From: Dastarcus helophoroides
Taxonomy: Eukaryota > Arthropoda > Insecta > Coleoptera > Bothrideridae
NCBI GenBank assembly: GCA_028583605.1
Contig: CM053337.1
Span: forward strand, 16,617,664-16,681,663
Direction of reading: 5' to 3'
Length of the DNA stretch: 64,000 nt
Positions 808 to 63,879 of the stretch are shown here, one piece after another (positions within the stretch are counted from its first letter, which is position 1; every line of letters starts with the position of its first letter). Position numbers and translations under genes: made by a program. The notes beneath the pieces were generated by a model that saw only the letters and a program-made list of their open reading frames with translations, searched no databases and had not been told where the DNA came from.

Positions 808-897
808 TTAGGTTTTGTGTCTGTACAAACGTTAAAGTCTCCAAAATATCAAAGGGACGTGGAGATTTGAACGTTTGTGCAGACGAGAAACCCAAAC
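808..897. repeat. Head-to-head pair of core modules
   Basis: Two copies of the 33-bp core face each other. The left copy (808-843) is in minus sense and the right copy (859-894) is in plus sense, reading GGAGATTTGAACG then TTTGTGCAGACGAGAAACC. The arms match at most positions over about 34 bp with a ~15-bp centre, so the segment could fold as a hairpin. It is the first occurrence of the core in the window. Confidence 0.75.
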
Positions 898-1147
898 AAA
901 TATTAACGTTTAAAGTCCTGAAGTTAATTAAAAGGTTTCTAAACTAGCACTAGCGTGAAAAATTAAATCTAAATACCTAACTATAAATTCAAATTTTATT
1001 CTAGGTTAAGTTCTCTGTTAGGTTTTTTCAAAACAACATTTGAAAGAATCCTCGATTCGTTTCGAAGTTAATCAATTCAATAAAAAGAAGAATTTCGCTT
1101 TTGCACCTGTGTTTCATCAAAATATTATAGTTTACAACAAAAAAATA

Positions 1148-1637
1148 GCTCGTATAGGCGAATTGCCCGGAGATTTCAACGCGAATGTAACAATGGATAT
1201 TAAATTTGGGAGATTTCAAGGCTCGTATAAACGAGTTGCTAGGAGATTTCAATGATTGTATAGACGAGTTGCCCGGAGATATCAACGCTCGTATAGGCAA
1301 GTTGCTCGGAGATTTCAACGCTCGTATTAGCGAGTTTCCCGGATATTTCAACGTTTGTATAGGCGAGTTGCCCGAAGATATCAACGTTTGTATAGGCGAG
1401 CTGCCCGGAGATTTCAACGCTCGTATTAGCAAGTTGTCGGGAGATTTTTAACGCTCGTATAGACGAGTTGCCCGGAAATTTCAAACCTCGTATTAGCGAG
1501 TTTCTCGGAGATTTCAACATTTGTATAGACGAGCTGCCCGGAGTTTTCAACGCTCGTATTAGCAAGTTGTCGGGAGATTTTTAACGCTCGTATAAGGCGA
1601 GTTGCAAGGGAAATTTCAATGCTCGTTTAGACGAATA
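1148..1637 (+). repeat. 33-bp tandem array, plus sense
   Basis: About 14 head-to-tail units. Successive box A starts at 1271, 1304 and 1337 are exactly 33 bp apart. Typical sense sequence is CCCGGAGATTTCAACGCTCG followed by TATTAGCGAGTT. Because 33 is divisible by three, an 11-residue peptide repeat containing GDFNARI is open over 1206-1451. Frame-breaking one-base indels at about 1448 and 1590 show the frame is not maintained. Confidence 0.9.
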
Positions 1638-1962
1638 GAAAAAACTGAAATTTCCACAAAAATAGAAATTTTGAAAGTTTTAATTGTAAAAAAATCAAAA
1701 TTTAAAAAAATTAAAATTTTATATAAAAAGTCATAATTCGGTGTCGAAGGTTTAAAAAAAACATTTTGAATGTGTTATCTAGTTTAAGAGTTCAAACATA
1801 AATATAAAATTTACAACAAATGAGACTTATGTACATAATCAAGCCTGAAACTGAAAGATTTTGAGTAATTGGAAGCAAAAATCCAAGATAAGAGTTGACA
1901 TTTTGAGTTTAACTGCTAATCTTAGGGGAAAAAAGTTAAAAGAATAAGAAATATAAACGAAA
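1638..1962. other. A/T-rich filler
   Basis: Runs of A and T with short direct repeats of AAAATT type; no core copies, no gene and no clear tandem period. It separates two 33-bp arrays. Confidence 0.6.
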
Positions 1963-1964
1963 AA

Positions 1965-2425
1965 TTGGGAGACTTCAATGAACGCATAGGTGAAATATAT
2001 TGGAAGACTTTAATGTACGTATAAGCGAAAAACCGTTAGACTTTAATGCTCATATAAGTGAGAAATCGATATACTTTAACGCTCCTATAAGCGAGAATCC
2101 GGGAGATTTTAACGCTCGTATAAGCGTGAATCTGGGAGACTTTAACGCTTGCATAAGCGAGAGTCGGGGAGACTTTAACGCCTGTATAAGCGAGAGAGAA
2201 TTTAGGAGACTTTAACGCCCATATAAGCGGGAATTTGAGAGACTTTAACGCTCGTATAAGTGAGAATTTGGGAGATTTTAATGCTTGTATAAGCAAAAAT
2301 CTGGCAGTTTTTAAAGCTAGATAAGCGAGAGTCTGGGAGACTTTAACGCTTGTATAAGCAAGAATCTGAGAGACTATAATGCATGGATAAACAAGAAATT
2401 AGGTGAGTTTATTGCGCGTATAAGC
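1965..2425 (+). repeat. 33-bp tandem array, plus sense
   Basis: About 13 diverged units of the form GGGAGACTTTAACGCTTG followed by CATAAGCGAGAGTC. Spacing is mostly 33 bp with occasional indels, for example near 2195. Box A is mostly the GACTTTAACGC version, unlike the GATTTCAACGC version of the preceding array, so the two arrays are separate subfamilies. Confidence 0.88.
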
Positions 2426-2514
2426 GCGAAGCTCAAAGTATTTAGAGTACAAAAAAACAAAAAACCAAGGATACGCATAAGTAAGAAATATTGTGTATAA
2501 AGCTAGGAAATTGG

Positions 2515-2710
2515 CATATTTTAACGTACAAAACAAATTGGAATTCGAGAGACTTTAACGCACGTATAAAACTACAACTAAAAGATTTTGGCGCAAGAAA
2601 TAGAGATTTTAACGCCTGCGTAAGAAAGAAACTTGGAGACTTTAATGCACGTGAAAACAAGAAACCGAGAGACTTCAATGCTCGCAAAAGCATGGAACTG
2701 CGCATGTAAA
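2515..2710 (+). repeat. Short degenerate 33-bp array, plus sense
   Basis: Five to six diverged units, such as GGAGACTTTAATGCACG at 2636 and AGAGACTTCAATGCTCG at 2669 (33 bp apart). The units before 2600 are partly truncated. Confidence 0.8.
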
Positions 2711-3649: not shown

Positions 3650-5440
3650 TCTTGCTTATACAAAATCTCTCAATTTCTTACTTGTACGTGCGTTAAAGTC
3701 TCTTAGTTTCTGGCTTGTTCGGCCATTAAAGTCTCTCAGTTTATCGCTTGTACGCGCATTAAAGTCTCTCTATGTCTTACTTATGCGTATGTTAAAGTTT
3801 ATCAGCATTTAGTTTATACGAGCATTAAGATCTTTCAGTTTCTTACTTGTACGCGCATTTGTATTCCAGTTTCTCACGTTAAAATCTGTCAATTTCTCAC
3901 TTGTACGTGCGTTAAAGTCTCTTCGATTCTGGCTTGTTTGGCCATTAAAGTCTCTCAGTTAATCGCTTTTGTTCGCTCATTAAAGTCTCTCAGTTTCTCG
4001 CTTGTACGCGCATTAAAGTCTCTCAATGTCTTACTTATGCGTATGTTATTTGAACGCGCATTTGTCTTTCAGTTTCTTACGTTAAAATCTCTCAATTTCT
4101 CACTTATGCGTGCGTTAAAGTCTCTTAGTTTCTGGCTTGTTCGCTCATTAAAGTCTCTCAGTTTATCGCTTGTACGCGCATTAAAGTCTCTCAATGTTTT
4201 ATTTATGTGTACGTTAAAGTCTATCAGTGTCTCGTTTATACGAACATAAACATCTTTCAGCTTCTTACTTGTACGAGCATTTGTCTCTCAGTTTCTTACG
4301 TTAAAATCTCTCAATTTCTCACTTATGCGTGCGTTAAAGTCTCTTAGTTTCTGGCTTGTTCGCTCATTAAAGTCTCTCAGTTTATCGCTTGTACGCGCAT
4401 TAAAGTCTCTCAATGTTTTATTTATGTGTACGTTAAAGTCTATCAGTGTCTCGTTTATACGAACATAAACATCTTTCAGCTTCTTACTTGTACGAGCATT
4501 TGTCTCTCAGTTTCTTACGTTAAAATCTCTCAATTTCTCACTTATGCGTGCGTTAAAGTCTCTTAGTTTCTGGCTTGTTCGCTCATTAAAGTCTCTCAGT
4601 TTATCGCTTGTACGCGCATTAAAGTCTCTCAATGTTTTATTTATGTGTACGTTAAAGTCTATCAGTGTCTCGTTTATACGAACATAAGAATCTTTCAGCT
4701 TCTTACTTGTACGCGCATTTGTCTCTTAGTTTCTAACGTTAAAATCTCTGAATATCTCACTTATGCGTGCGTTAAAGTCTCTTAGTTTCTAGCTTGTTCG
4801 CTCATTAAAGTCTCTCAGTTTATCGCTTGTACGCGCATTAAAGTCTCTCAATGTTTTATTTACGTGTATGTTGAAGTCTATCAGTGTCTCGTTTATACGA
4901 ACATAAAAATCTTTCAGCTTCTTACTTGTACGCGCATTTGTCTCTCAGTTTCTTACGTTAAAATCTCTCAATTTTTCACTTGTACGTGCGTTAAAGTCTC
5001 TTAGTTTCTGGCTTGTTCGCTCATTAAAGTCTCTCAGTTTATCGCTTGTACGCGCATTAAAGTCTCTCAATGTCTTACTTATGTGTATGTCAAAGTTTAT
5101 CAGTATCTAGTTTATACGAACATTAAAATTGTTTAGCTTCTTACTTGTACGAGCATTTGTCTTTCAGTTTCTTACGTTAAAATCTGTCAATTTCTCACTT
5201 GTACGTGCGTTAAAGTCTCATAGTTTCTGTCTTGTTCGCTCATTAAAGTCTCTCAGTTTATCGCTTGTACGCGCATTAAAGTCTCTCAATGTCTTACTTA
5301 TGCGCACGTTAAAATCTATTAGCATATCGCTTATACGAACATTAGAGTCTTTCAGCTTTTTCTTGTACGCGCATTTGTCTCTCAGTTTCTTGCTCGTGCC
5401 TGCTTTAAAGTCTCTTACTTTTTCGCAAAAAGAAGGGAAC
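3650..5440 (-). repeat. 219-bp higher-order repeat of 33-mers
   Basis: Core modules are in minus sense (GCGTTAAAGTCTCTTAG and relatives). A short module starting GCATTTGTCT recurs at 4058, 4277, 4496, 4715, 4934, 5153 and 5371, that is every 219 bp (last interval 218). Each period holds six 33-bp modules plus one truncated 21-bp module (6 x 33 + 21 = 219). Modules at the same rank in different periods are far more alike than neighbours within a period. The preceding interval (3855-4058) is 203 bp. The open frames at 3938-4249 and 5129-5449 follow from the 3-divisible period. Confidence 0.93.
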
Positions 5441-6010: not shown

Positions 6011-8564
6011 AAAAAATAATAAGAGACTTTAACAAATTAACAAGCAAGAAACTGAAAGATTTAAACGCACGCGACATTTTAACAAGCGATAAGCTGAAAA
6101 ATTTAACGTTCATATAAGCGAGATAATAAGAGACTTTAAAGTAAGTATAAACAAGAAAATAAGAGACTTTAACGAGCTAACAAGCGAAAAACTTTAAACG
6201 CACGTGAGACTTTAACGAACAAACGAGAAATTGAGAGACTTTAACATACAAGAATCTGAGAAATTTTGACGTCTGTACAAGCGAGAAACTGAGAGACTTT
6301 AACGTACACCTAGACAAGAAACTGAGTTATTTTAACGAACTCAAGCTAGAACTGAGGGATTTTGACGCACGTCTTAGCGAGAAACAGAGAGATTTTAACG
6401 TGCGTACAAATAAGAATTTAACTCGCTAGCAAGAACTGAGAAATTTTGACGCACGTATTAGCGAGAAACTAAGAGACTTTAACGTACACCTAGACAAGAA
6501 ACTGAGTTATTTTAACGAACTTAAGCTAGAACTGAGGGATTTTGACGCACGTCTTAGCGAGAAACAGAGAGATTTTAACGCGCGTACAAATAAGAATTTA
6601 ACTCGCTAGCGAGAACTGAGAGATTCTGACTCACGTATTAGCGAGAAACTAAGAGACTTTAACGAGCGTACAAGCAAAAAGCTGAGAAATTTCAACGTTC
6701 GTATAAGCGAGATACTGAGTAAACATAAAAGAAATTGAGGTATTTTAACGCAGGTACAAGCGAAAAGCTGAGAAATTTTAACGTTCGTGTAAGCGAGAAA
6801 CTGAGAGACTTTAACGTTGGCACAGACAAGAAACCCATTTATTTTAACGATCTCACAAGCGAGATTTACGAGATTTTAATGCACGCATTAGCTCGAAACT
6901 AAGAGATTTTAACCTAAGTATGAACAAGAAAATAAGAGATTTTAACTAGCGAACAAGCGAAAAACTGAAAGATTTTAACGCATGCAATACTTCAACGTAA
7001 AAACAAAAACTTGAGAGACTTTAACGCACGTACAAGCGAGAAACTAAGAAATTTTAACATTGATATAAGCGAGATACTGAGAGACTTTAACGTAAACATA
7101 AGCAAGAAAATAAGAGACTTTAACGAGTTAGCAAGCGAGAAACTGATTAATTTAAATGCTCGCGAGACTTGAATGTATAAACAGGAAATTGAAAGACTTT
7201 ATTACACGTGCAAGATATGAGAAGCTGAGAGACGTTAACGTACGCATAAACAAGAAACTAAGTTATTTTAACAAGCTCAGAAGCAAGAACTAAGAGATTT
7301 TGATGCACGTATTATCGAGAAATTGGGAGATTTTAACGCAAATATGGAAAAAATAGGAGACTTTAACGAGCTAACAAGCGAGAAACTAAAAGATTTAAAC
7401 GCATGCAACGTATAAACAAGAAATTGGGAGACTTTAACGAACGTAGAAACGAAAAGCTGAGAAATTTTAACGTTCGTATAAGCGAGAAACTGAGAGACTT
7501 TAACGTACACATAGACAAGAAACTGAGTTATTTTAACGAACTCAAACTAGAACTAAGAGATTTTGACGCACGGCTTAGCGAGAAACAGAGAGACTTCAAC
7601 GCGCGTGCAAATAAGATTTTAACTCGCTAGCGAGAACTGAGAGATTTTGATGCACGTATTAGCGGGAAACTAAGAGACTTTAACGCGCGTACAAGCAAGA
7701 AGCAGAGAAATTTCACCGTTCGTATAAGCGAGATACTGAATAAACAAGAAACTGAGACGTTTCAACCATCTCACAAGCGAGAACTATGAGATTTTGACGC
7801 ACGCATTAGCTCGAAACTAAGAGATCTTAACGTAAGTATGAACAAGAAAGTAAGAGATTTTAATTAGCGAACAAGCGAAAAACTGAAAGATTTGAACGCT
7901 TGCAATACTTCAACGTAAAAACAAAAACTTGAGAGACTTTAACGCACGTACAAGCGAGAAACTAAGAAATTTTAACATTGGTATAAGCGAGATACAGAGA
8001 GACTTTAACGCAAACATAAGCAAGAAAATAAGAAACTTTAACGAGCTAGCAAGCGAGAAACTGATTAATTTAAATGCTCGCAAGACTTGAATGTATAAGC
8101 AAAAAATTGAAAGACCTTATTGTGCGTGCAAGAGAGAAGCTAAGATACGTTAACGTATGCATAAACAAGAAACTAAGTTATTTTAACGAGCTCACAAGCA
8201 AGAACTAAGAAATTTTACGCACGTATTATCAAGAAACTGGAAGATTTTAACGTAAATAAACAAAAAAAATAAGAGACTTTAACGAGCTAGCAAGCGAGAA
8301 ACTGAAAAGTTTAGAACACATGCAACGTATAAACAAGAAATTGGGAGACTTTAACGAACGTAGAAACGAAAAGCTGAGAAACTTTAATGTTTGTACAAGC
8401 GAGAAACTGAGATACTTTAACATACGCATAGTCAAGAAACCCAGTTATTTCAACGAATTTAAGCTAGAACTAAGAGATTTTGATGCACGTCTTAGCGAGA
8501 AGTAGAGTGACTTTAACGCGCGTACAAGTAAGATTTTAACTCCTTAGCGAGAACCGAGAGATTT
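6011..8564 (+). repeat. 33-mer array with nested 180 and ~918-bp periods
   Basis: Plus-sense modules of the AGAGACTTTAACG type, each followed by a variable arm and AGCGAGAAACT. Two higher orders are visible. A block containing GTACACCTAGACAAG starts at 6304 and 6484 (180 bp). A larger block recurs at about 918 bp: TGCAATACTTCAACG at 6983 and 7901 (918), TGCAACGTATAAACAAG at 7404 and 8321 (917). Many modules are truncated. A local 75-codon open frame at 7403-7630 encodes diverged GDFN-containing repeats but is interrupted on both sides. Confidence 0.9.
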
Positions 8565-8565: not shown

Positions 8566-9297
8566 GAGAGAAGAGAAGAGAAGAGAAGAGAAGAGAAGAG
8601 AAGAGAAGAGAAGAGAAGAGAAGAGAAGAGAAGAGAAGAGAAGAGAAGAGAAGAGAAGAGAAGAGAAGAGAAGAGAAGAGAAGAGAAGAGAAGAGAAGAG
8701 AAGAGAAGAGAAGAGAAGAGAAGAGAAGAGAAGAGAAGAGAAGAGAAGAGAAGAGAAGAGAAGAGAAGAGAAGAGAGAAGAGAAGAGAAGAGAAGAGAAG
8801 AGAAGAGAAGAGAAGAGAAGAGAAGAGAAGAGAAGAGAAGAGAAGAGAAGAGAAGAGAAGAGAAGAGAAGAGAAGAGAAGAGAAGAGAAGAGAAGAGAAG
8901 AGAAGAGAAGAGAAGAGAAGAGAAGAGAAGAGAAGAGAAGAGAAGAGAAGAGAAGAGAAGAGAAGAGAAGAGAAGAGAAGAGAAGAGAAGAGAAGAGAGA
9001 AGAGAAGAGAAGAGAAGAGAAGAGAAGAGAAGAGAAGAGAAGAGAAGAGAAGAGAAGAGAAGAGAAGAGAAGAGAAGAGAAGAGAAGAGAAGAGAAGAGA
9101 AGAGAAGAGAAGAGAAGAGAAGAGAAGAGAAGAGAAGAGAAGAGAAGAGAAGAGAAGAGAAGAGAAGAGAAGAGAAGAGAAGAGAAGAGAAGAGAAGAGA
9201 AGAGAAGAGAAGAGAAGAGAAGAGAAGAGAAGAGAAGAGAAGAGAAGAGAAGAGAAGAGAAGAGAAGAGAAGAGAAGAGAAGAGAAGAGAAGAGAAG
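8566..9297. repeat. (GAGAA)n microsatellite, ~730 bp
   Basis: Roughly 146 uninterrupted GAGAA pentamers, broken only by two identical phase slips (AGAGAGAAG at about 8773-8779 and 8993-9001). The left edge lies inside a 33-mer: the module GAGAGATTTTGA runs directly into GAGAAGAGAA. One strand is pure purine. Open frames on both strands (about 250-280 codons, REEKR-type and LLFSS-type) are artefacts of the pentamer. True length may differ from the assembly. Confidence 0.97.
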
Positions 9298-9541: not shown

Positions 9542-11745
9542 TTAGCCAGAAACAGAGAGACTTTAACGCGCGTACAAATAAGATTTTAACTCGCTAGCGA
9601 GAGCTGAAAGATTTTGACGTACGCATTAGCTCGAAACTGAGAGATTTCAACGTAAGTATACACAAGAAAATAAGAGATTTTAACGAGCAAATAAGCGAGA
9701 AACTGAAGGATTTAAAGACCCGCAATTCTTTAGCGCAAGAACAAGAAATTGAGAGACTTTAACGCACGTAAAAGCGAGAAGCTGACGTTGGTATAGCGTT
9801 GGTATACGCGAGATACTGAGAGACTTTAACTTAAGTATAGATAAGAAAATAAGAGACTTTAACGAGCTAACAATCGAGAAACTAAAGTATTTAAACGCAC
9901 GTAAGACTTTCACGTATAAACAAGAAATTGAGAGACTTTAATGAACGTAGAAACGAAAAGCTGAGAAATTTTAACGGTTGTACAAGGGAGAAACTGAGAG
10001 ACTTTAACGTACGCATAGACAAGAAACTCAGTTATTTAACCAGCTCACAAGCGAGAACTAAGAGATTTTGAGATATGCATTACCGAGAAACGAGGAGATT
10101 TTAACGTAGGTATAAACAAAAAATAGGAGACTTTAATAAGTTAACAAGCGAGAAACTAAAATGTATAAACGCACGCAACGTATAAACAAGAAATTAAGAG
10201 ACTTTAACGCAGGTACAAGCGAAAAACTGAGAAATTTTAACGTTCGTACAAGCGAAAAACTGAGAGACTTTAACGTAAGCATAGACAAGAAACCCAGTTA
10301 TTTTAACGAGCTCACAAGCCAGATCTAAGAGATTTTGACGCACGTATTAGCGAGAAACTAAGAGATTTTAACGTAAGTATAAATAAGAAAATAAGAGATT
10401 TTAATGAGCGAACAAGCGAGAAACTGAATGATTTAAATGCACGCGAGACTTGAACGTATGAACAGGAAATTAAGAGACTTTACCGTGCGTACAAGAGAGA
10501 ATCTGAGAGCATTTAACGTAAGCATAGATAAGAAATTAAGTAATTTTAATGATCTCACAAACAAAAACTAAGAGATTTTGACGCACGCATTAGCGAAAAA
10601 CTAGGAAATTTTAATGTAAGTATAAACAAAAAATAGAAGACTTTAATGAGCTAACAAGCGAGAAACTAAAAGATTTAAACGCACGCAACGTATAAACAAG
10701 AAATTAAGAGACTTTAACACAGGTACAGGCAAAAAGCTAAGAAATTTTAACGTTCGTACAAGCGAGAAACTTAGAGACTTTAACGTAGGCATAGACAAGA
10801 AACCCAGTTATTTTAAAGAGCTCACAAACAAGAACTAAGAGATTTTGATGCACGTATTAGCGAGAAACTGAGAGACTTTAACGTACGCATAGACAAGAAA
10901 CCCAGTTATTTTAACGAGCTCACAAACGAGAACTAAGAGATTTTGACGCACGTATTAGCGAGAAACTGAGAGATTTTAACGTAAGTATAAATAAAAAAAT
11001 AAGAGACTTTAATGAGCTAACAAGCGAGAAACTAAAAGATTTAAACGCACGCAACGTATAAACAAGAAATTAAGAGACTTTAACGCAGGTACAAGCGAAA
11101 AGCTGAGAAATTTTAACGTTCGTACAAGCGAGAAACTGAGAGACTTTAACGTAGGCATAGACAAGAAACCCAGTTATTTTAACGAGCTCACAAGCAAGAA
11201 CTAAGAGATTTCGACGCACGTATTAGCGAGAAACTGGGAGATTTTAACGTAGGTATAAACAAAAAATAGGAGACTTTAATAAGCTAACAAGCGAGAAACT
11301 GAAAGGTTTAAACGCACGCAACGTATAAACAAGAAATTAAGAGACTTTAACGCAGGCACAAGCGAAAAGATGAGAAATTTTAACGTTCGTACAAGCGAGA
11401 AACTGAGAGATTTTAACGTACGCATAGACAAGAAACCCATTTATTTTAACAAGCGCACAAGCGACAACTAAGATTTAGACGCAAATCTTAGCGAGAAACT
11501 GAGAGAATTTAACGCGCGTATAAATCAGAATTTAACCCATTAGCGAGAACTGAGAGATTTTGATGCACGTATTGGCGAGAAACTGGGAGACTTTAACGCG
11601 CGTACAAATGAGAATTTAAGAGACTTTAACGCATATGTTATATAAACAAGAAACTGAGTGATTTTAACGAGCGTAACGAGCGAGAACCTGAGAGACTTTA
11701 ACGTTCGTATAAGCGAGATACCATAACAGACTTTAACGCACCTGC
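9542..11745 (+). repeat. 33-mer array with 267-bp higher-order period
   Basis: Plus-sense modules. The marker GCAACGTATAAACAAG occurs at 10175, 10685, 11051 and 11318. The last interval is 267 bp. The 366-bp interval equals 267 plus three extra modules (99 bp), visible as a duplicated triple near 10860-10970. The module set overlaps that of the 6.0-8.6 kb array (same CAGTTATTTTAACGAGCTCA module), so both arrays share an ancestor. Confidence 0.88.
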
Positions 11746-50025: not shown

Positions 50026-50159
50026 TCACCATAATTATCGCAAGTTTCAAATACAAAATTCGAAAAATTGACGTATGACTTCAAAATAATGACAATTGAG
50101 CACCACAGCGTCAAATATCCCTAAAAAATTTACTTTTAGTGAAAAATTATGCTAAAGTA

Positions 50160-51340
50160 CAATTTAAGTGATTGGAATGTACCAATTTGGAGATTTCAAT
50201 GCTAGTTTGGGCAAGAAGCCCACGAATTTTACGCCTTTGTTGAAAAAACGTTTCAAAATTTGACCTAATTGGTAACTTTAGCGTTAATGTGCTCAAATAA
50301 TTTGGATAGGCGCAAATATCTTGGAGATTTCAATGCTAGCTCAAGCAAAATGCCACAAATAATTACTTTTCTAGAAAAACTATATTAAAATATAATTTAC
50401 TACTACTAGTTTGCGCGAGTAACTCACAAATTTTGTTTTTGTTAAAATAACGTTTCAAAATTTGACTTATTTGGTGATTTTAGTGCTAATCTACGCAAAT
50501 AATTTGGAGATTTCAATGCTAGCCCAAGCCAAATGCCACAAAAAATTTCTCTTTGGGAACAGTTATATTAAAATATATTTGGCGATTTTAACGCATACAC
50601 AGGTAACTTACTCGAAGATTTACTTCTCGTGAAAAAGTATGCTAAAGTTATACTAAGTGACCTTTGCATTGGTGTCTAATTTAGAGATTTCAATGCTAGT
50701 TTCGGCGAGTAAATAACAAATTTTATGCCAATGTTGAAAAAACTTTCAGAATTTGACTTATTTGGTGATTCTAGCGTTAATCTATGCAAATAACTTGGAG
50801 ATTTTAATGCTAGCTCAAGCAAAATACCGCAATTGGGAACAATTATATTAAAATATACTTTACTTGGCGATTTTAACGCATACACAGGTAACTAACTCGG
50901 AGATTTACTTCTCGTGAAAAAGTATGTTAAAGTTATATAAGTGACCTTTGCATCGGTGTCTGATTTAGAGACTTCAATGCTAGTTTTGGCGAGTAACTAA
51001 CAAATTTTACGCCTTTGTTGAAAAAACTTTCAGAATTTGACTTGTTTGGTAATTTTAGTGCTAATATGCGCAAATAATTTGGAGATTTCAATGCTAGCTC
51101 AAGCAAAATGCCACAAAAAATTACTTTTTGGGAACATTTTTATTAAAATATACTTTACTTGGCGTTTTTAACGCATGCGCAGGTAACTAACTCGGAGATT
51201 TGAATGCTAGCTTTAGCGAGACCAACATTTTTAGGCTTGTATTAAAAAAATGTTTCAAACACTTTGTGAATATTTAAGCGTTTGTGGGGGCAAATAATTT
51301 AGCTTCAGCTTACACAAAAACAAAAAAAATTCGTGCTACA
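50160..51340 (+). repeat. ~285-bp repeat with four cores per unit
   Basis: GGAGATTT(C/T)AATGCTAG followed by CTCAAGC (or CCAAGCC) lies near 50322, 50505, 50789 and 51079. AGAGATTTCAATGCTAG and its relative lie at 50683 and 50967 (284 bp apart). Between them are GGCGATTTTAACGCATAC and GGTGATTTTAGTGCTAAT. All are plus sense. The same sequence recurs in reverse orientation at 55.7-57.3 kb. Confidence 0.85.
51217..51340 (+). repeat. Direct repeat flanking 104-bp array, left
   Basis: Starts GCGAGACCAACATTTTTAGG and runs through CACTTTGTGAATATTT and GGGCAAATAATTTAGCTT to AAAACAAAAAAAATT. It is nearly identical to 54537-54657. It belongs to the 285/820-bp family: a reverse-orientation relative lies at 55800-55915. 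Confidence 0.88.
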
Positions 51341-54300
51341 ATTTAATTTACAGATAAATTATCAATTTGTTTGAAGGAGATTTCAATGCTAACTCAAGCG
51401 AAAAGCCCAAAAATGTTACATTTTTTTTACAAATCGTCCTACAATTTTATTTACTTTTTATTTCGATTTTTAATTTATTCGAAGGAAATTTTAACACCAG
51501 CTTTATTTAGCAAGAAGCTCAAAAATTTTACATCTTTATTACAAATCATACTGCAATTTAATTTACCGAGTAATTTTTAATTTGTTTAAAAGAGATTTCA
51601 ATGCCAGCTTAAGCAAAAAGCTCAAACATTTTACATTTTCAATAACAAATCATTCTACAAGTTAATCTGTCAAGTGATTTTTGATTTGTTTGAAGGAGAT
51701 TTCAACGCCAGTCTAAGCGAGAAGCTCAAAAACTTCACATTTTTAGTAACAAATCATCCTACAATTTAATCTATCAAGTGATTTTTAATTTGTGCGAAGG
51801 AGATTTCAACGCCAGCCTAAGCGAGAAGCTCAAAAATTTTACATTTTTATTACAAATTATCCCACAATTTAATTTAACGAGTAATTTTTAATTTGTTTGA
51901 AAGAGATTTCAACGCCAGCTTAAGCAAAAAGCTCAAAAATTTCACATTTTCAGTAACAAATCATCCTACAAGTTAATCTGTCAAGTGATTTTTAATTTGT
52001 TTGAAGGAGATTTCAACGCCAGTCTAAGCGAGAAGCTCAAAAATTTCACATTTTTAGTAACAAATCTTCGTGCAATTTAATCTATCAAGTGATTTTTAAT
52101 TTGTGCGAAGGAGATTTCAACGCCAGTCTAAGCGAGAAGCTCAAAAATTTTACATTTTTATTACAAATTATCCCACAATTTAATTTAAGAAGTAATTTTT
52201 AATTTGTTTGAAAGAGATTTCAACGCCAGCTTAAGCAAAAAGCTCAAAAATTTCACATTTTCAGTAACAAATCATCCTACAAATTAATCTGTCAAGTCAT
52301 TTTCTTTTTGTTTGAAGGAGATTTCAACGCCAGTCCAGGCGAGAAGCTCAAAAATTTCACATTTTTAGTAACAAGTTATCCTACAATTTATTCTATCAAG
52401 TGATTTTTAATTTGTTCGAAAAAGATTTCAACGCCAGACTTAGCAAAAAACTCAAAAATTTTACATTTTTATTACAAATTAACCTACAATTTAATTTACC
52501 GAGTAATTTTTAATTTGTTTGAAAGAGATTTCAATGCCAGCTTAAGCAAAAAGCTCAAACATTTTACATTTTCAGTAACAAATCATCCTACAAAGTAATC
52601 TATCAAGTGATTTTAAATTTGTTTGAAGGAGATTTTAACGCCAGTCTAAGCGAGAAGCTCAAAAATTTCACATTTTTAGTAACAAATCATCCTACAATTT
52701 AATCTATCAAGTGATTCTTAATTTGTTCGAAGGAGATTTCAACGCCAGCTTTAGCAAGAAACTCAAAAATTTTACATTTTTATTGCAAATTATCCTACAA
52801 TTTAATTTACCGAGTAGTTTTTAATTTTTTTGAAAGAGATTTCAACGCGAGCTTAAGTAAAAAGCTCAAAAATTTCACATTTTCAGTAACAAATTATCCT
52901 ACAAGTTAATCTGTCAAGTGATTTTTAATTTGTTTGAAGGAGATTTCAACGCCAGTCTAAGCGAGAAGCTCAAAAATTTCACATTTTTAGTAACAAATTA
53001 TCCTACAATTTAATCTATCAAGTGATTTTTAATTTGTTCGAAGGAGATTTCAACGCCCGCTTTAGCAAAAAGCTCAAAAATTTTACATTTTTATTGCAAA
53101 TTATCCCACAATTCAATTTAACGAGTAATTTTTAATTTGTTTGAAAGAGATTTCAACGCCAGCTTAAGCAAAAAGCTCAAAAATTTCACATTTTCAGTAA
53201 CAAATCATCCTACAAGTTAATCTGTCAAGTGATTTTTAATTTGTTTCAAGGAGATTTCAACGCCAGTCTAAGCGAGAAGCTCAAAAATTTCACATTTTTA
53301 GTAACAAATCCTACAATTTAATCTATCAAGTGATTTTTAATTTGTTCAAAGGAGATTTCAACGCCAGCTTTAGCAAAAAGCTCAAAAAATTTACATTTTT
53401 ATTGCAAATCCACAATTCAATTTAACAAGTAATTTTTAATTTATTTAAAAGAGATTTCATTTCACATTTTCAGTAACAAATCATCCTACAAGGTAATCTG
53501 TCGAGTGATTTTTAATTTGTTTGAAGGAAATTTCAACGCCAGTCTAAGCGAGAAGCTCAAAAATTTCACATTTTTAGTAACAAATCATCCTACAATTTAA
53601 TCTATCAAGTGATTTTTAATTTGTTCGAGAAAGATTTCAACGCCCGCTTTAGCAAGAAACTCAAAAATTTTACATTTTTATTGTAAATCATCCCACAATT
53701 CAATTTAACGAGTAATTTTTAATTTGTTTGAAAGAGATTTCAACGCGAGCTTAAGTAAAAAGCTCAAAAATTTCACATTTTCAATAAAAAATTATCCTAC
53801 AAGTTAATCTGTCAAGTGATTTTTAATTTATTTGAAGGAGATTTCAACGCCAGTCTAAGCGAGAAGCTCAAAAATTTCACATTTTTAGTAACAAATCTTA
53901 CAATCTAATCTATCAAGTGATTTTTAATTTGTTCGAAGGAGATTTCAACGCCAGCTTTAGCAAGAAACTCAAAAATTTTACATTTTTATTGCAAATTATC
54001 CTACAATTTAATTTACGGAGTAGTTTTTAATTTTTTTGAAAGAGATTTCAACGCGAGCTTAAGTAAAAAGCTCAAACATTTCACATTTTCAGTAACAAAT
54101 CATCCTACAAGTTAATCTGTCAAGTGATTTTTAATTTATTTGAAGGAGATTTCAACGCCAGTCTAAGCGAGAAGCTCAAAAATTTCACATTTTTAGTAAC
54201 AAATCATCCTACAATTTAATCTATCAAGTGATTTTTAATTTGTTCGAAGGAGATTTCAACGCCAGCTTTAGCAAGAAACCCAAAAATTTTACATTTTTAC

Positions 54301-54531
54301 TACAAATCATCCCACAATTCAATTTAACGAGTAATTTTTAATTTGTTTAAAACAAACTTCAACGCCAGCTTAAGAATTTCACATTTTTCGTAACAAATCA
54401 TCCTACAATTTAATCTATCAAAAGATTTTTAATTTGTTTGAAGGAGATTTCAACGCCAGGTTAAGCGAGAAGCTCAAAAATTTCACATTTTCAGTAACAA
54501 ATCATCCTACAAGTTAATCTGTCAAGTGATT
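51341..54531 (+). repeat. 104-bp satellite, homogeneous block, ~30 copies
   Basis: GGAGATTTCAACGCCAG starts at 51695, 51799, 51902, 52006 and 52110 (104, 103, 104 and 104 bp). Units alternate among subtypes ending TCTAAGCGAGAAGC, CTTAAGCAAAAAGC and CTTTAGCAAGAAAC, suggesting a partial higher-order repeat of three to four units. A few units carry internal deletions, for example near 53456 and 54370. Confidence 0.93.
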
Positions 54532-54536
54532 TTAGC

Positions 54537-54657
54537 TTTAGCGAGACCAACATTTTTAGGCTTGTATTAAAAAATGTTTCAAACACTTTGTGAATATTTT
54601 AGCGTTTGTGAGGGCAAATAATTTAGCTTTAGCTTACACAAAAACAAAAAAAATTAC
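54537..54657 (+). repeat. Direct repeat flanking 104-bp array, right
   Basis: Second copy of the ~120-bp sequence at 51217-51340, joined to the 104-bp array after CAAGTGATTTTAGC. It continues beyond the repeat into sequence of the 285-bp family. Together the copies indicate that the 104-bp block lies within an interrupted unit. Confidence 0.88.
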
Positions 54658-54699
54658 CTTCCGTGAAGTTAACGTTGACTGTTAATGATTTAAAAGCTT

Positions 54700-54750
54700 A
54701 TAATAGTTAACTAACTCGGAGATTTTAATGCTAGTTCAAGCGAAAGACTT
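54700..54750 (+). repeat. Solitary core, plus sense
   Basis: TCGGAGATTTTAATGCTAG then TTCAAGCGAAAGAC at 54716-54748. It matches the 285-bp family and marks the right edge of this repeat domain. Confidence 0.78.
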
Positions 54751-55690: not shown

Positions 55691-56356
55691 TTTAGCTTTT
55701 CGCTTAAAAAAAGCATTGAAATCTCCGAATTAGTTAACTATGTAAGCGTCTAATCGTTAAGTCAAATTTTGACGTTAATTTCGAGGAATTTTTTAGGTCT
55801 TATTTAAGCTGGAGCTAAACTCACCAAATTATTTGCCCTCAGACGCGCCACAGTAATGAAAACAGTTTTTGAAAGATTTTTTAACACTAACTTAAAAATG
55901 GTCGCCTTCTGGCTCAAGCTAGCATTCAAATCTTCGAGTTAAGTTACCTAGGTAAGGGTTAAAATCGTCAAGTGAAGTATATGTCAATATCATTTTACCC
56001 AAAAAGTGATTTTTTGTGGTATTTCGCTTGGGCTAGCATTGAAATCTCCAAATTATTTGTGCAATTAGAACTAAAATCATCAAATAGGTCAAATTTTGAA
56101 ACGTTTTTTTAAAAAAGACGTAAAATTTGTAGGCTACTTGCTCAAACTAGCATTGAAATCTCCAAATTAATTACCGATGCAAGATCACTTAGTATAACTT
56201 TAACATACTTTTTCACGAGAAGTGAATTTTTTGAGATTTTTGTTTAGGCTAACGCTAAAATTCGCATTAATATAATATTTGTCTTACTTTGACGAATTTT
56301 TAAAAATTGTTTAGACTCAAAAACTCATTCGTTCGAAAAAGTGTTAAAATCGCCGA

Positions 56357-56517
56357 GCTACTCGCTTAAGCGGGCATTGAAGTCTCTGGGCTACTTGCTT
56401 TTAGCGCATCGAAATCACCAAGAAGTCGTTCATATGATTCAATATAGATATCGTGGTGACTTCGATGCTCGCGAAGGCGAGTAGCCTGGAGACTTTAATG
56501 CTTATTTAGGCGAGTAT
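56357..56517. repeat. Foldback hairpin 1, ~70-bp arms
   Basis: The left arm holds two minus-sense cores (CTACTCGCTTAAGCGGGC and CTACTTGCTTTTAGCGCATC). The right arm holds two plus-sense cores (GGTGACTTCGATGCTCG and GGAGACTTTAATGCTTATT). The arms are imperfectly complementary over about 70 bp around CATATGATTCAATATAG. Confidence 0.85.
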
Positions 56518-57167
56518 TCTAGTGAGGTCTTTCGCTTAAAAAAAGCATTAAAATCTCCGAATTAGTTAACTATGTAAGTGTCTAATCGGTACGTCAAATT
56601 TTGACGTTAACTTCACGAAATTTTTTGGTTTTATTTAAGTTGAAGCTAAACTCTTCAAAATATTTGACCTCACACGCGCTACAATAATAAAAACAGTTTT
56701 TGAAACATTTTTTAACACTAACTTAAAAATGGTCGCCTTTTGGCTTAAGCTAGCATTCAAATCTTCGAGTTAGTTACCTAGGTAAGGGTTAAAATGGCCA
56801 AGTAAAGTATGTTTTAATATAATTTTACCCAAAAAGTGATTTTTTGTGGTATTCCGCTTGGGCTAGCATTGAAATCTCCAAATTATTTGCGCAGATTAGA
56901 ACTAAAATCACCAAATAAGTCAAATTTTGAAACGTTTTTTAACAAAGACGTAACATTTGTAGGTTACTCGCTTAAACTAGCATTGAAATCTCCAAATTAG
57001 TTAACGATGCAAGATCACTTAGTATAATTTTTCACGAAAGGTAAAGTTTTAAAGATATCTGTTTAAGCTGGAGCTGAAATTCACATTATTGTCCTACTTT
57101 GACGGATTTTTAAAAATTGTTTAGACTCACACACTCAATCGTTCGAAAAAGTATTAAAATCGCCGAG

Positions 57168-57326
57168 CTACTCGCTTAAACGAGCGTTGGAGTCTCTGGG
57201 CTACTTGCTCTTATCGCATCGAAATCACCAAGATATAGTTCATATGATTCAATATAGATATCGTGGTGATTTCGACGCCCGCTAAGGCGAGTAGCCCGGA
57301 GACTTTAATGCTTATTTAGGCGAGTA
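57168..57326. repeat. Foldback hairpin 2, ~70-bp arms
   Basis: Same architecture as hairpin 1: GCATCGAAATCACCAAGATA faces TATCGTGGTGATTTCGACGC, and GAGTCTCTGGGCTACT faces AGTAGCCCGGAGACTT. The loop is again CATATGATTCAATATAG. This is the best-matched of the three. Confidence 0.87.
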
Positions 57327-57360
57327 TTCTAGCGATTTCAAAAACTAAAAAATATCAAAA

Positions 57361-57607: not shown

Positions 57608-57765
57608 GCTACTCGCTTAAACGAGCGTTGAAGTCTTCAAGCCACTCGCCTTAGCGAGTATCGAAATCGCCAAGATATCGTTCATACGATTCAATATAGA
57701 TATCGTAGCGATTTTGGCGCTCGCTAAGGCGAGTAGCCCGGAGACTCCAATGCTTGCTTAGGCTA
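57608..57765. repeat. Foldback hairpin 3, ~70-bp arms
   Basis: Third copy of the structure: CTACTCGCTTAAACGAGCG on the left, GCTCGCTAAGGCGAGTAG on the right, loop CATACGATTCAATATAG. Its right arm continues directly into the 33-bp array at 57739-58165, so that array looks like an expansion of the hairpin's last module. Confidence 0.85.
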
Positions 57766-58165
57766 GAAGCCCGGAGACTCCAATGCTTGTTTAGGCTAGA
57801 AGCCCGGAGACTCCAATGCTTGTTTAGGCTAGAAGCCCGGAGACTCCAATGCTTGTTTAGGCTAGAAGCCCGGAGACTCCAATGCTTGTTTAGGCTAGAA
57901 GCCCGGAGACTCCAATGCTTGGTTAGGCTAGAAGCCCGGAGACTCCAATGCTTGTTTAGGCTAGAAGCCCGGAGACTCCAATGCTTGCTTAGGCTAGAAG
58001 CCCGGAGACTCCAATGCTTGTTTAGGCTAGAAGCCCGGAGACTCCAATGCTTGTTTAGGCTAGAAGCCCGGAGACTCCAATGCTTGTTTAGGCTAGAAGC
58101 CCGGAGACTCCAATGCTTGTTTAGGCTAGAAGCCCGGAGACTCCAATGCTTGTTTAGGCGAGTGA
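57739..58165 (+). repeat. Highly homogeneous 33-bp array, ~13 copies
   Basis: Near-identical units CCCGGAGACTCCAATGC followed by TTGTTTAGGCTAGAAG; only a few single-base differences (TTGCTTAGG, TTGGTTAGG). The homogeneity suggests recent expansion. The 139-codon open frame at 57754-58173 (11-residue repeat RLEARRLQCLF) is a consequence of the 33-bp period. Confidence 0.96.
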
Positions 58166-58388
58166 CTTTTTAAAAACTAAATTAATTGAAAATTTGCAGA
58201 AAAAATGATTTTTGCTCATTAACGGTTGTAACAATTTATCAAATATTCGGTCGACTAATTCGCTTTCATATTAACAATTCAAAATTGATTGCGCTATTTC
58301 GCTTGCACATTAACACAAGATTTTCAGATTTATCGTAACTTCGGGGAATTTAAAAAAAAATCGGATTTATTAACGAGATTTGCTTTTA

Positions 58389-58540: not shown

Positions 58541-58620
58541 TGGGCTACTCGCTTAAACGAGCGTTGAAGTCTCCAGGCTACTCGCCTTAGCGAGCGTCGA
58601 AATCACTGCAATATCGTTTA
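58541..58620 (-). repeat. Unpaired left arm of the foldback unit
   Basis: Two minus-sense cores, CTACTCGCTTAAACGAGCG-TTGAAGTCTCC and CTACTCGCCTTAGCGAGCG-TCGAAATCACTG, then AATATCG. It matches hairpin left arms, but the right arm is missing. Confidence 0.85.
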
Positions 58621-59199: not shown

Positions 59200-59355
59200 G
59201 ACAAACACTTTGGAAATATCAACGCTTGGTTAGGCGAGAATCCCAAAAATTTAACAATTGTGTGAAGAATTGTTTTGGTTGCTTTGCGATTTTAATGCTT
59301 GCATAGGCAATTAACCCGGAGATTTCAACGCTAGATTAAGCGAGAGATCCAAAAG
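59200..59355 (+). repeat. Two diverged cores, plus sense
   Basis: TTTGGAAATATCAACGCTTG at 59211 and CCGGAGATTTCAACGCTAG with ATTAAGCGAGAG at about 59319-59350, plus a decayed GCGATTTTAATGCTTGC at 59286. Spacing is not 33 bp. Confidence 0.8.
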
Positions 59356-60344: not shown

Positions 60345-60600
60345 GCCAGTGTCGAGTTCCTCGGATTACTCGCTTAAACCAGTATTTAAATTTCCGGGTT
60401 ACTCGCTTAAAGGAGCATCGAAATCCCCAGGCAACTCGCTTTAAGTATCGTTGAAATCTCCGGGTTACTCGCTTAAGAGAGCGTTAAAATCTCCGGGTTA
60501 CTCGCTTAAGAGAGCGTTAAAATCTCCGGGTTACTCGCTTAACTAAGCATTAAAATCTCTGCGTTTTGACGGGCGTTAAAATCACCAAAATAACCATACA
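60345..60600 (-). repeat. 33-bp array, minus sense, ~7 units
   Basis: Modules of the form GGTTACTCGCTTAAG then AGAGCGTTAAAATCTCCGG; the two at 60470-60535 are identical. The last unit ends in GGGCGTTAAAATCACCAAA, the same ACC-type terminal core seen at 49.4-50.0 kb and at the ends of the arrays at 61.4-63.9 kb. Confidence 0.9.
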
Positions 60601-61383
60601 TTAAATACACAAATTTTCAATGAAATTTTTACCAAATTACCCTCTTTCATAAAACTGTTTTATTCCATCAGAAAAAAGAGTGTAATTACCACCGGAATAT
60701 TATACTAATATTATTAACAATCCACCGATTATTATTGGCAATATTGGCTCACGTATTGGGGAACCGATCGACCTTAAAAATCGAATAATGACAGGAAGGC
60801 GGCTCTTAAGCGCCGCTGCTAACGCTGCGCAATTACCGTCTGAAACAAAAAACCAATCTTATTTGTTTACCAAATTGGTTTTACTAATCATATGTTCGAC
60901 TGATACCCGTTAAATAATAATAATAAACGCATACACGTAACGCGTGTTTCTTTCAGATGAGTAAATACGCACAAAAGCATCGTGTCCATAATTTGATCGA
61001 ATTTTTTGTTGGTGGCGATCAGGAAGCTCGATTTAATGTATCGAACGTTGCGAATAATTACTTTGCAATTAGGTAAAACGCGTTTCAGTCTGGCCGAGTT
61101 AAAAACCGTTCGCTGAAAAAGCGTCGATTTTAAAGTTAAACGTGTAACTTGGTCTATTACTGTGACTAGACTAAAGGCCAGTCTGGTCGCTTTTTTGCCA
61201 TATTCGCTTTTATTTGTTCACTGCGGACGACTTATTTGTGTTCCGCGTTCAAGGTAAAGATGCTTCACTCTCTTAACCTCAACAACTTAAAAAACAAATA
61301 ACAAATTTAAAGAATGTGGCATCTTTTATTCGCTTTGGTACAAAACGTCGCAATTTTTGGAGTATTGGTCCAAATAAACATCT
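60601..61383. other. Single-copy island 13
   Basis: Non-repetitive. Its last ~70 bp (61312-61383: AGAATGTGGCATC ... GGTCCAAATAAACATC) resembles the end of the spacer that separates the following arrays, so it is a diverged first spacer. No gene seen. Confidence 0.45.
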
Positions 61384-62062
61384 TCAATTAAACGAGCGTC
61401 GAAATCTCCGGGTTACTCGCTTAAACGAGCGTCGAAATATCCAGATTACTCGCTTAAACGAGCGTCAAAATCTCCGGGTTCATCGCTTAGACAAGCGTCA
61501 AAATCTCCGTGTTCATCGCTTAAACGAGCGTCGAAATCTCCGGGTCACTCGCTTAAACGAGCGTCGAAATCTCCGGGTTACTCGCTTAAACGAGCGTCGA
61601 AATCTCCAGGCTACTCGCTTAAACTAACGTCGAAATCTCCGGGTTACTCGCTTAAACGAGCGTCGAAATCTCCGGGTTACTCGCTTAAACGAGCGTCGAA
61701 ATCTCCGGGTTACTCGCTTAAACGAGCGTCGAAATCTCCGGGTTACTCGCTTAAACGAGCGTCGAAATCTCCGGGTTACTCGCTTAAACGAGCGTCGAAA
61801 TCTCCGGGTTACTCGCTTAAACGAGCGTCGAAATCTCCAGGCTACTCGCTTAAACAAGCTTCGAAATCTCCAGATTACTCGCTTAAACTAACGTCGAAAT
61901 CTCCGGGTTCATCGCTTAGACAAGCGTCGAAATCTCCGGGTTCATCGCTTAAACGAGCGTCGAAATCTCCGGGTTACTCGCTTAAACGAGCGTCGAAATC
62001 TCCGGGTTACTCGCTTAAACGAGCGTCAAATCTCCAAGTTACTTGCTTAAGCCAGCGTTGAT
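61384..62062 (-). repeat. 33-bp array, minus sense, ~20 units
   Basis: ACTCGCTTAAACGAGCG then TCGAAATCTCCGGGTT. A run of seven essentially identical units occupies about 61620-61850, and a TTCATCGCTTAGACAAGCG variant recurs. On the core-sense strand the frame reads GDFDARLSE then a TAA stop in every unit, so the array does not code for a GDF-type protein now; other phases stay open by period. Confidence 0.95.
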
Positions 62063-62290
62063 GTCTCTTTTCGACCATTAAAATTACCACAATTTAGCGC
62101 AAATTCGTCATGTTTTCAAGGTCTTGATTCAACGGGTAATATTCTGCCATTTTATTCGATTACGCGAGCTATAATTTGTCGACTACAATAACAAAACATG
62201 TGTGAAAAAGATTGGAGAATGCGGTGGTGTGTGGTTTGTTTTGACACAATCTGTCACAAATTCTGGATTATTCGTCCAAATAAACATCGA
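62063..62290 (-). repeat. ~230-bp inter-array spacer, copy A
   Basis: Begins with an ACC-type core end (CGACCATTAAAATTACCAC), runs through ACGGGTAATATTCTGCCAT, TTTGTCGACTACAATAAC, GGTGGTGTGTGGTTTGTTTT and ends GTCCAAATAAACATCGAAA. Copies recur at 63025-63245, 63488-63707 and 63880-64000. Confidence 0.93.
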
Positions 62291-63024
62291 AATTTCCGGA
62301 TTACTCATTTAAACAGCGTCGAAATCTCCGGGTTACTCGCTTAAACGAGCGTCGAAATCTCCAGGTTACTCGCTTAAACGAGCGTTGAAATTTCCGGGTG
62401 CATCGCTTAAACGAGCGTCGAAATCTCCAGGCTACTCGCTTAAACGAGCGTCGAAATCTCCAGATTACTCGCTTAAACGAGCGTCAAAATCTCCGGGTTC
62501 ATCGCTTAGACAAGCGTCGAAATCTCCGGGGTCATCGCTTAAACGAACGTCGAAATCTCCGGGTTACTTGCTTAAATGAGCGTCGAAATCTCCGGGTTAC
62601 TCGCTTAAACGAGCGTCGAAATCTCCAGGCTACTCGCTTAAACAAGCGTCGAAATCCCCAGATTACTCGCTTAAACGAGCGTCGAAATCTCCGGGTTCAT
62701 CGCTTAGACAAGCGTCGAAATCTCCGGGTTACTTGCTTAAATAAGCATCGAAATCTCCGGGTTACCCGCTTAAACGAGCGTCGAAATCTCCAGGCTACTC
62801 GCTTAAACAAGCGTCGAAATCCCCAGATTACTCGCTTAAACGAGCGTCGAAATCTCCGGGTTCATCGCTTAGACAAGCGTCGAAATCTCCGGGTTCATCG
62901 CTTAAACGAGCGTCGAAATCTCCGGGTTACTCGCTTAAACGAGCGTCGAAATCTCCGGGTTACTCGCTTAAACGACTGTCGAAATCTCCAAGTTACTCGC
63001 TTATGCCAGCGTTGATGTCTCTTT
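62291..63024 (-). repeat. 33-bp array, minus sense, ~22 units
   Basis: Same modules as 61.4-62.06 kb. A block of about five modules (containing CCCCAGATTACTCGC and TTCATCGCTTAGACAAGC) recurs at about 62640 and 62812, a higher-order period near 170 bp. It ends with the same GCCAGCGTTGATGTCTCTTT as the array before. Confidence 0.94.
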
Positions 63025-63245
63025 TCGACCATTAAAATCACCACAATTTAGCGCAAATTCGTCATGTTTTCAAGGTCTTGATTCAACGGGTAATATTCTG
63101 CCATAATATCCGATTACGCCAGCTATAATTTGTCGACTACAATAACAAAACAAATATGTGAAAAAGTTTGGAGAATGCGGTGGTGTGTGGTTTGTTTTGA
63201 TTCAATCTGTCACAAATTTTGGATTATTCGTCCAAATAAACATCG
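63025..63245 (-). repeat. ~230-bp inter-array spacer, copy B
   Basis: Near-identical to copy A, with scattered substitutions (GCCATAATATCCGATTACG) and GATTCAATCTGTCACAAATT. Confidence 0.93.
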
Positions 63246-63487
63246 AAATTTCCGGATTACTAATTGAAACAGCGTCGAAATCTCCGGGTTACTCGCTTAA
63301 ACGAGCGTCGAAATCTCCGGATTCATCGCTTAAACGAGCGTCGAAATCTCTAGGTTACTGGCTTAAACGAGCGTCGAAATCTCCGGGTTCGTTGCTTAAA
63401 CGAGCGTCGAAATCTCCAGGTTACTCGCTTAAACGAGCGTCGAAATCTCCGAGTTACTCGCTTAAGCCAGCGTTCATGTCTCTTGTT
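63246..63487 (-). repeat. 33-bp array, minus sense, ~7 units
   Basis: Same core modules. It starts with the short GAAACAGCGTCGAAATCTCC unit that also starts the preceding array and ends in GCCAGCGTTCATGTCTCTTG. Confidence 0.93.
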
Positions 63488-63707
63488 GACCATTAAAATC
63501 ACCACAATTTAGCGCAAATTCGTCACGTTTTCAAGTTCTTGATTAAACGGGTAATATTCTGCCATATTATTCCTTTACGCGAGTTCTAATTTGTCGACTA
63601 CAATAACAAAACAAATATGTGAAAAAATTTGGAGAATGTGGTGGTGTGTGGTTTGTTTTGACACAATCTGTCACAAATTCTGGATTATTAGCCCAAATAA
63701 ACATCGA
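63488..63707 (-). repeat. ~230-bp inter-array spacer, copy C
   Basis: Third good copy (AACGGGTAATATTCTGCC, TTTGTCGACTACAATAAC, CCCAAATAAACATCGAAAC). Confidence 0.93.
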
Positions 63708-63879
63708 AACCTACGAACTACTCGCTTAAATGAGCGTTGAGTTGTCTAGGTTATTCGCGTTAACACGCGTCAAAATCTCCGGGTTCATCGCTTAAACGAG
63801 CGTCGAAATCTTCGGGTTACTCGCTCAAACGATCGTCGAAATCTCCAAGTTACTCGCTTAAGCCAGCGTTGATGTCTCT
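63708..63879 (-). repeat. 33-bp array, minus sense, ~5 diverged units
   Basis: Shorter and more diverged (GGTTATTCGCGTTAACACGCG), ending in the standard GCCAGCGTTGATGTCTC terminator module. Confidence 0.9.

Follow-up and report, generated by a model that had tools for sequence, protein, structure and literature searches.

Throughout 64,000 nucleotides of contig CM053337.1 of the beetle Dastarcus helophoroides (GCA_028583605.1, positions 16,617,664 to 16,681,663 of the forward strand; hereafter the window, with coordinates counted from its first base), a 33-bp sequence module recurs as simple arrays, as higher-order repeats, and as a part of satellites with very different unit lengths. We put at about even odds (probability roughly 0.5) that all modules descend from one 33-bp progenitor, which spread locally by tandem amplification and through head-to-head inverted pairs. 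This reading is directly supported by the common module, by linkers shared within two groups of unit types, by the clustering of module subtypes, and by divergent pairing. The results also support the proposal, made in a preliminary description of this DNA, that one short sequence repeatedly seeded new satellites or was retained in them.

One module in many satellite families

Collecting modules with an iterated 27-bp matrix, whose threshold was set on shuffled windows to give about one false match each, yielded 609 matches in the window versus 0–4 (mean 1.3) in each of ten dinucleotide-shuffled windows. The full module comprises the 27-bp matrix core and a 6-bp tail (33 bp), and 20,077 bases are covered. 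The single shared module of about 33 bp that had been described is thus confirmed, as is its presence in both orientations (302 plus, 307 minus). Neighbouring modules have the same orientation in 588 of 608 cases, leaving 20 switches, and same-orientation neighbours are spaced by 33 bp in 295 cases and by 34 bp in 75. Seventeen family segments were drawn by hand and contain 596 of the 609 modules; the remaining 13 were excluded from family statistics.

The best conserved part of the module is box A (GGAGAYTTYRAYGC, positions 1–14), which occurs 339 times with at most two mismatches (shuffle mean 0.62, largest 3). The same kind of count for box B, whose dyad sequence is CTCGYTTAARCGAG, gives 124 occurrences (shuffle mean 3.2, largest 8), including some sites that were scored once per strand, as the box is nearly a palindrome.

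Module-bearing units in the tandem-repeat list are simple 33-mers and units of 219, 267/366, 67, 104, 191, 284, and 299 bp. Module spacing and periods add a 557-bp spacing, a 934-bp period at 13.6–15.3 kb, and a ~956-bp period at 61.4–63.9 kb, and a ~820-bp unit was also found. The unit sizes reported earlier were borne out, those of 33, 219, 267, 104, 191, 284/285, and 299 bp by the list and those of 557 and 934 bp by module spacing and period; the ~820-bp unit was recovered separately. Module subtypes are less similar the farther apart they lie in the window (Mantel r = 0.38, p = 0.0006; based on 16 segments, the second 104-bp block omitted).

Head-to-head pairs and an expanded arm

The 20 orientation switches are of two kinds that differ in geometry. 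Where a minus module is followed by a plus module, with the box A sides inward (divergent), the median gap is 162 bp, compared to 991 bp at convergent switches (p = 0.011; p = 0.014 with one junction removed per side for the duplicated 820-bp unit). The innermost modules are also more alike at divergent switches (0.72) than at convergent ones (0.64, p = 0.037), and random opposite-strand pairs reach 0.60.

The simplest case is a head-to-head pair of single modules at 810–893, which has an 18-bp centre and 26 of 33 identical positions. Palindromes with two modules on each side (2+2) lie at 56336–56516 (fold z −11.8 vs shuffles), at 57146–57326 (z −14.5), and at 57608–57772 (z −12.0). The first two are copies of one another and belong to two tandem ~820-bp units (55698–57340), which carry inverted modules at both ends and a palindrome inside. 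The right arm of the third is extended by 13 near-identical plus-strand 33-mers (57740–58168): the outer module of this arm is present in 13 copies (98% matches), whereas the opposite arm has one. A minus-strand module dimer at 58542–58607 is half a palindrome. On a larger scale, the module dimer of the 299-bp satellite (17347–20768, minus) is mirrored by a plus-strand module trimer at 21696–21794, about 1 kb away, over 82 bp (63 identical).

Several of the copies described as solitary in the preliminary description are therefore inverted pairs or dimers (810–893; 56.36–56.52, 57.17–57.33, 57.61–57.77, and 58.54–58.61 kb). Some array edges fall in modules or within 10 bp of them at 17347, 39102, 41166, and 55698 and not at 20768, in a setting where modules are dense and edges blurred. 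A hairpin of the module in RNA is predicted for only some segments: 4 of 17 consensus dimers (F6, F11, F15, and F16) have a fold z below −3 on one or both strands.

These arrangements could also have been produced by a foldback-type non-autonomous transposon, in which an inverted pair of module tracts forms terminal inverted repeats of 33-bp sub-repeats, the transposase is encoded elsewhere, and the arrays are expanded arms. The 1+1 and 2+2 head-to-head pairs, the inverted modules at the ends of the ~820-bp unit, and the 13-copy array that extends from one palindrome arm are all consistent with such an element, and Tetris of Drosophila virilis offers a precedent in which TIR-220 repeats are building blocks of satellite arrays (PMC4079207). 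Yet a mobile element would be expected to scatter, whereas the module subtypes are clustered locally. No target-site duplication was seen by eye in the flanks that were read, a systematic search not having been made, and Pfam detected no transposase domain in the regions examined (ten open reading frames; all six frames of 20.8–23.3, 36.9–39.1, and 47.3–61.4 kb; three plus frames of 1–800). We consider the foldback origin unlikely. The hopping short element suggested earlier is conceivable in the form of the head-to-head pairs.

Linkers define two groups of related units

To compare the DNA between modules, we masked all matrix matches and aligned 13 linkers and control stretches with one another in every combination (78 pairs); the opposite orientation and 60 shuffles served for comparison. 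Seven same-orientation pairs reached z values of at least 4.9, as against one of 78 opposite-orientation pairs (z 5.5, two AT-rich arrays that lack modules). As this mask had spared the weaker module remnants, a second test lowered the masking threshold to 6 bits and used 100 shuffles. Under this strict mask, the linkers of the 104-bp and 557-bp units match with z 11.8 in the same orientation only (opposite −0.4), and so do the linkers of the 285-bp and ~820-bp units (z 11.8; opposite 1.3). The 557-bp and 820-bp linkers are borderline (z 3.7; score 38, shuffled maximum 39), and all opposite-orientation pairs are below z 3.5. Four of the unit types listed in the preliminary description therefore represent two families. 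A single superfamily joining the 104-bp, 557-bp, 285-bp, and 820-bp units and the copies at 37 kb and 59 kb was considered and dropped, as the strict mask leaves only these two pairs.

Remnants of box A in the orientation of the module are present in the 104-bp, 557-bp, 285-bp, 820-bp, and 37-kb linkers among 16 stretches scanned, and none of the 16 has remnants in the opposite orientation. The 59-kb linker, the 390-bp stretch, and four single-copy stretches have no box A remnants; the 108-bp array has four weak ones, which come from one repeated unit.

Several results weigh against a single local origin. In the masked scans, the linkers of the 299-bp, 191-bp, 287-bp, and 61–64 kb units had no match, either among themselves or with the two linker groups, and they are without box A remnants, so they would be either of other origin or too old; this is offset in part by one flank of the 287-bp group, which aligns to the 285-bp group (46/61). 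Linker likenesses involving the 37-kb and 59-kb regions vanish under the strict mask (four pairs: z 2.9, 2.4, 0.5, and −0.6). The 67-bp and 191-bp arrays mirror each other no better than expected by chance (score 30 vs a shuffled maximum of 30), and the alignment of the arrays at 3.7–5.4 and 6.0–7.5 kb (1026/1574) is expected of any arrays of the same subtype. The junction tests are also small (10 divergent vs 10 convergent), with uncorrected p-values and hand-drawn family segments.

The preliminary description had stated that flanking sequence is not shared between families, and that flanks aligning along their length would reduce the families to diverged copies of one long unit. At the sensitivity of these scans, its statement holds for the 299-bp, 191-bp, 287-bp, and 61–64 kb linkers; it fails for the 104–557 and 285–820 pairs, where flanks do align. 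Separately, three minus-strand module dimers at 49391–50030 are spaced by exactly 287 bp, though the intervening linkers scarcely align (z 0.8–2.7).

Under the progenitor reading, a single 33-bp sequence would be ancestral to all copies and would have spread mainly inside this chromosome region by tandem amplification at successive scales, giving 33-mers, then higher-order repeats, and then composite units that picked up adjacent AT-rich DNA. Head-to-head inverted pairs would arise with their box A sides toward the centre, and in the clearest cases one arm of a pair would then have been amplified, alone or with adjoining DNA. Such arm amplification may have generated new satellites that differ in period and lie in both orientations. 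The module would be common to these satellites because it is their oldest, shared part. The order from pair to array, the way in which pairs form, and a possible benefit of box A for amplification are inferences.

Conservation of box A

Mean column entropy across the 17 segments is 0.62 bits in box A, 1.54 at positions 15–20, 0.87 at positions 21–27, and 1.30 in the tail, and within families, identity peaks in box A in 12 of the 15 segments with at least five copies. Box B is not constant. Of the 33 registers, that of its dyad scores best in 7 of the 17 segments and second best in 3; it ranks lower in the other 7, which include the 67-, 219-, and 267-bp arrays. In the 104-bp family, diversity is higher in box B than in the linker (0.30 vs 0.19; second estimate 0.27 vs 0.17). 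The two-box core of the preliminary description is thus upheld for box A, while box B is variable.

This pattern would be expected if a sequence-specific protein bound the module, chiefly at box A, and selection retained the module in new satellites, in the manner of CENP-B and alpha satellite or of the 19-bp box of Meloidogyne. Besides the low entropy and high identity of box A, such binding is favoured by the distribution of variants: box A and the rest of the module hold 86:248 of the shared variants and 24:76 of the between-family variants, compared to 64:112 of the singletons (p = 0.014 and 0.044). The deficit loses significance when consensus alleles rather than families are counted (8:24, p = 0.23), and box A shows no clear shortage of recent singletons (64/176 vs expected 42%, p = 0.11). 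Matrix detection is itself biased toward intact box A; in the 6–15 kb array, 22 missed module slots have a decayed box A (0.73; detected 0.84; shuffled 0.50).

Comparisons between modules and linkers are similarly divided. In 61 units of the 104-bp family, delimited by linker anchors, the diversity of box A is half that of base-matched linker (0.107 vs 0.217); in a separate scan of this family, box A ranks 8th lowest in diversity of 91 14-bp windows. A 16-bp stretch of the linker matches box A in uniformity (0.097 vs 0.11) but is richer in A/T, 6 of the 61 units have no detectable module, and whole modules and linkers are equally diverse (0.181 and 0.166). In the 299-bp array, differences among copies amount to 0.083 for modules and 0.126 for linkers, and the two box As are 17th and 26th lowest of 286 windows. 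Four duplicated unit pairs, pooled by hand from the 820-bp, 57.4–58.2 kb, first 61–64 kb linker, and 285-bp comparisons, show a small difference in identity (385/418 in modules, 1087/1213 in linkers); modules account for 3 of the gap positions and linkers for 233. Outside this sum, the 287-bp pair is reversed, with modules (47/66) below the heavily gapped linkers (125/162); the third 61–64 kb copy gives 28/30 and 181/196 for modules and linkers, the whole 61–64 kb repeat 237/241 and 216/228 with 487 module gaps, and an overlapping comparison at 57.3 kb 87/98 and 226/270. The slower evolution of core than of linker for which the preliminary description proposed a test is thus suggested by box A in the 104-bp family, but not clearly by whole modules in duplicated units or by singletons.

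A bound protein, comparable in logic to CENP-B, had been named there as a possible explanation. The CENP-B box is a 17-bp sequence (YTTCGTTGGAARCGGGA) with nine essential bases. All 17 family consensus modules match it at best in 8–10 of 17 bases, while shuffled modules reach a mean best of 9.0–9.4 (p 0.24–1.0), and the module lies outside the CENP-B-box group. With the evidence on slower evolution mixed, selection on box A, or protein binding to it, is possible, whereas retention of the module by a bound protein as the general explanation appears rather improbable. Helical phasing of A/T at 11 bp was rejected as a common constraint (mean power share 0.18, p = 0.012 for the single period and 0.20 over all periods); in whole-array periodograms, the 11-bp period is strong in the arrays at 61–62 and 3.7–5.4 kb and absent in the 299-bp and 104-bp arrays.

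The variant counts would also fit a module that acts as a portable amplification seed. Head-to-head pairs would trap replication or recombination, box A would be required to amplify neighbouring DNA, and the same sequence would nucleate new satellites again and again from adjoining DNA. Copies lacking box A would then drop out of later amplification rounds, which would leave singletons spread along the module and shared variants poorer in box A. We give this view only a small chance of being correct.

A reading frame in the module

Alternatively, the module might have descended from a hendecad repeat that once encoded protein. Its in-frame translation is GDFNARLSEKL, whose 11 residues show a 3-4-4 hydrophobic spacing, and old variants of the module are largely synonymous. 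Among the 17 family consensuses, synonymous changes make up 49% of the codon differences that involve a single base in frame 0, compared to a permuted-column mean of 29% (p = 0.024); the antisense frame with the same codon partition gives p = 0.035, and the other four frames give p 0.43–0.94. A synonymous excess is found within 8 of 12 families at p < 0.05, and the 219-bp repeat corresponds to 73 codons.

However, the result is not significant once all six frames are corrected for, the C/T and A/G differences could be simple transitions, and the excess is also found in families that are unable to code today. Singletons have no codon pattern (32/43/31). The frame is broken by steps of 32, 34, 65, 71, 79, and 104 bp, and several consensus modules have a stop at codon 10. 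One protein query found no homologous protein at E 0.001, and Pfam matches of module-frame open reading frames at 1.2 and 4.3 kb are all below cut-off. GDFNA resembles the nuclease motif of long interspersed nuclear elements, a likeness that Pfam did not support. Overall, a coding origin seems very improbable.

An RNA gene or tRNA as the source of the module was rejected, since Rfam returned no family at gathering score and ARAGORN no tRNA. Elsewhere in the window, Pfam gave weak matches below cut-off to DUF2195 (20.8–23.3 kb) and ASFV_L11L (in the scan of 36.9–39.1 kb and 1–800). A MarR match of 27.6 bits (cut-off 24.6) in a reading frame of the 31.9–32.9 kb array was taken as spurious because it lies inside a repetitive satellite array. 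Exact patterns found no match in viral contigs and genome contigs, nor did one stretch against plasmids. A literature search for 12–14-mers gave matches, one of them on Caenorhabditis elegans chromatin, that were taken as unrelated.

Other module-bearing and module-free repeats

Several 33-mer arrays lie in the left part of the window. A plus-strand array with the consensus GGAGATTTCAACGCTCGTATAGGCGAGTTGCCC (1169–1641) is followed by a plus-strand array of an AAACTG-tailed subtype (1968–2700) and by minus-strand 33-mers arranged in a 219-bp higher-order repeat (3671–5415). One subtype, on the plus strand throughout, forms a degenerate array with long higher-order periods (6022–8538), 267/366-bp higher-order repeats (9556–11723), and a 934-bp higher-order period (13436–15344). 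The units of the 299-bp satellite consist of the module dimer and a 233-bp linker. A large 33+34-bp array has about 165 modules (30817–36470, minus) and is followed by 191-bp units with one clear module each (36474–36906, plus), by scattered modules and module remnants (37032–37240, plus), and by a solitary module (37876–37908, minus).

Further composite units lie to the right. The 557-bp units (39102–41170, plus) contain several modules and the linker homologous to the 104-bp family, which itself forms two plus-strand blocks (41225–47352 and 51376–54750) on either side of the 285-bp satellite (50189–51226, plus) with the linker common to the ~820-bp units. Beyond the palindromes lie three plus-strand modules, two of them adjacent (59212–59350), a short minus-strand 33-mer array (60363–60586), and minus-strand 33-mer arrays (61377–63879) split by a repeated ~200-bp linker, whose first two copies are about 956 bp apart.

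The module had been described as shared by nearly all satellites. It is shared by many families, but the claim is too strong: none of 11 further tandem arrays, hand-picked from the tandem-repeat list, has a module. These are an AGAGA array at 8.6–9.3 kb, a 108-bp array at 15.8–16.6 kb, 184- and 390-bp arrays at 23.6–27.6 kb, a 105-bp array at 47.9–48.2 kb, and six short AT-rich arrays. The AGAGA array (8567–9297; 145 copies, 98% matches) is located within the degenerate 33-mer region of 6–11.7 kb. The 108-bp array (15808–16648) has 92% matches between copies and one frame open for 118–146 codons. The AT-rich 184/390-bp satellites extend over 23626–29400, and several copies keep approximately PCDPSLKRSFQEDYSPLFGF in one frame; a 24-bp pattern from this stretch of the 390-bp satellite had no match in viral contigs. 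The 105-bp repeat (47857–48219) is separate, has a 48-bp sub-period, and is located amid unique DNA.

Comparison with known systems

The locus unites three known traits: a short box shared between satellites, arrays derived from foldback arms, and one progenitor for several satellites. Satellites of Meloidogyne have a conserved box (a 17-bp CENP-B-box-like Box 1 and a 19-bp CenH3-associated box), proposed to bind a protein or to favour rearrangement of arrays (PMC9673304, PMC3694981). As there, a short sequence is conserved across otherwise divergent satellites: the module is common to units with non-aligning linkers (299 bp, 191 bp, and 61–64 kb), though two unit-type pairs share linkers. Our module differs in having no CENP-B-box similarity and in also forming simple 33-mer arrays and inverted pairs; the 19-bp box was set beside it by description rather than by sequence.

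In Drosophila virilis, TIR-220 repeats of the foldback transposon Tetris are building blocks of satellite arrays (PMC4079207). Both systems have inverted arms of tandem sub-repeats that yield longer satellite-like arrays, and here the 2+2 palindromes have two modules per arm and the pair at 810–893 one. The Tetris repeats are ~220 bp long and ours 33 bp, and element ends, target duplications, and a transposase relative have not come to light here. In Tribolium madens, TmSat1 and TmSat2 are traced to one ~110-bp progenitor with dyad symmetries (PMC13081366), which likewise gave rise to more than one satellite via higher-order repeats and inverted arrangements. Our progenitor would be shorter (33 bp) and associated with more unit types, in a 64-kb window as opposed to megabase arrays. 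Helitron-associated satellites of Caenorhabditis are short repeats in several families, some of them related, that are borne by mobile elements (PMC4595182); in contrast, the partial Pfam scan found no Helitron domain here, and Helitron ends were not searched for.

The locus thus clearly adds to the known cases in which many satellites go back to one short progenitor and does not represent a new system. The window may display stages of satellite birth, from single modules and inverted pairs to an expanded arm, higher-order repeats, and composite units that captured linkers. Provided that their order can be fixed in sister species, these stages would allow a direct test of how satellites originate and of whether a short sequence promotes their formation.

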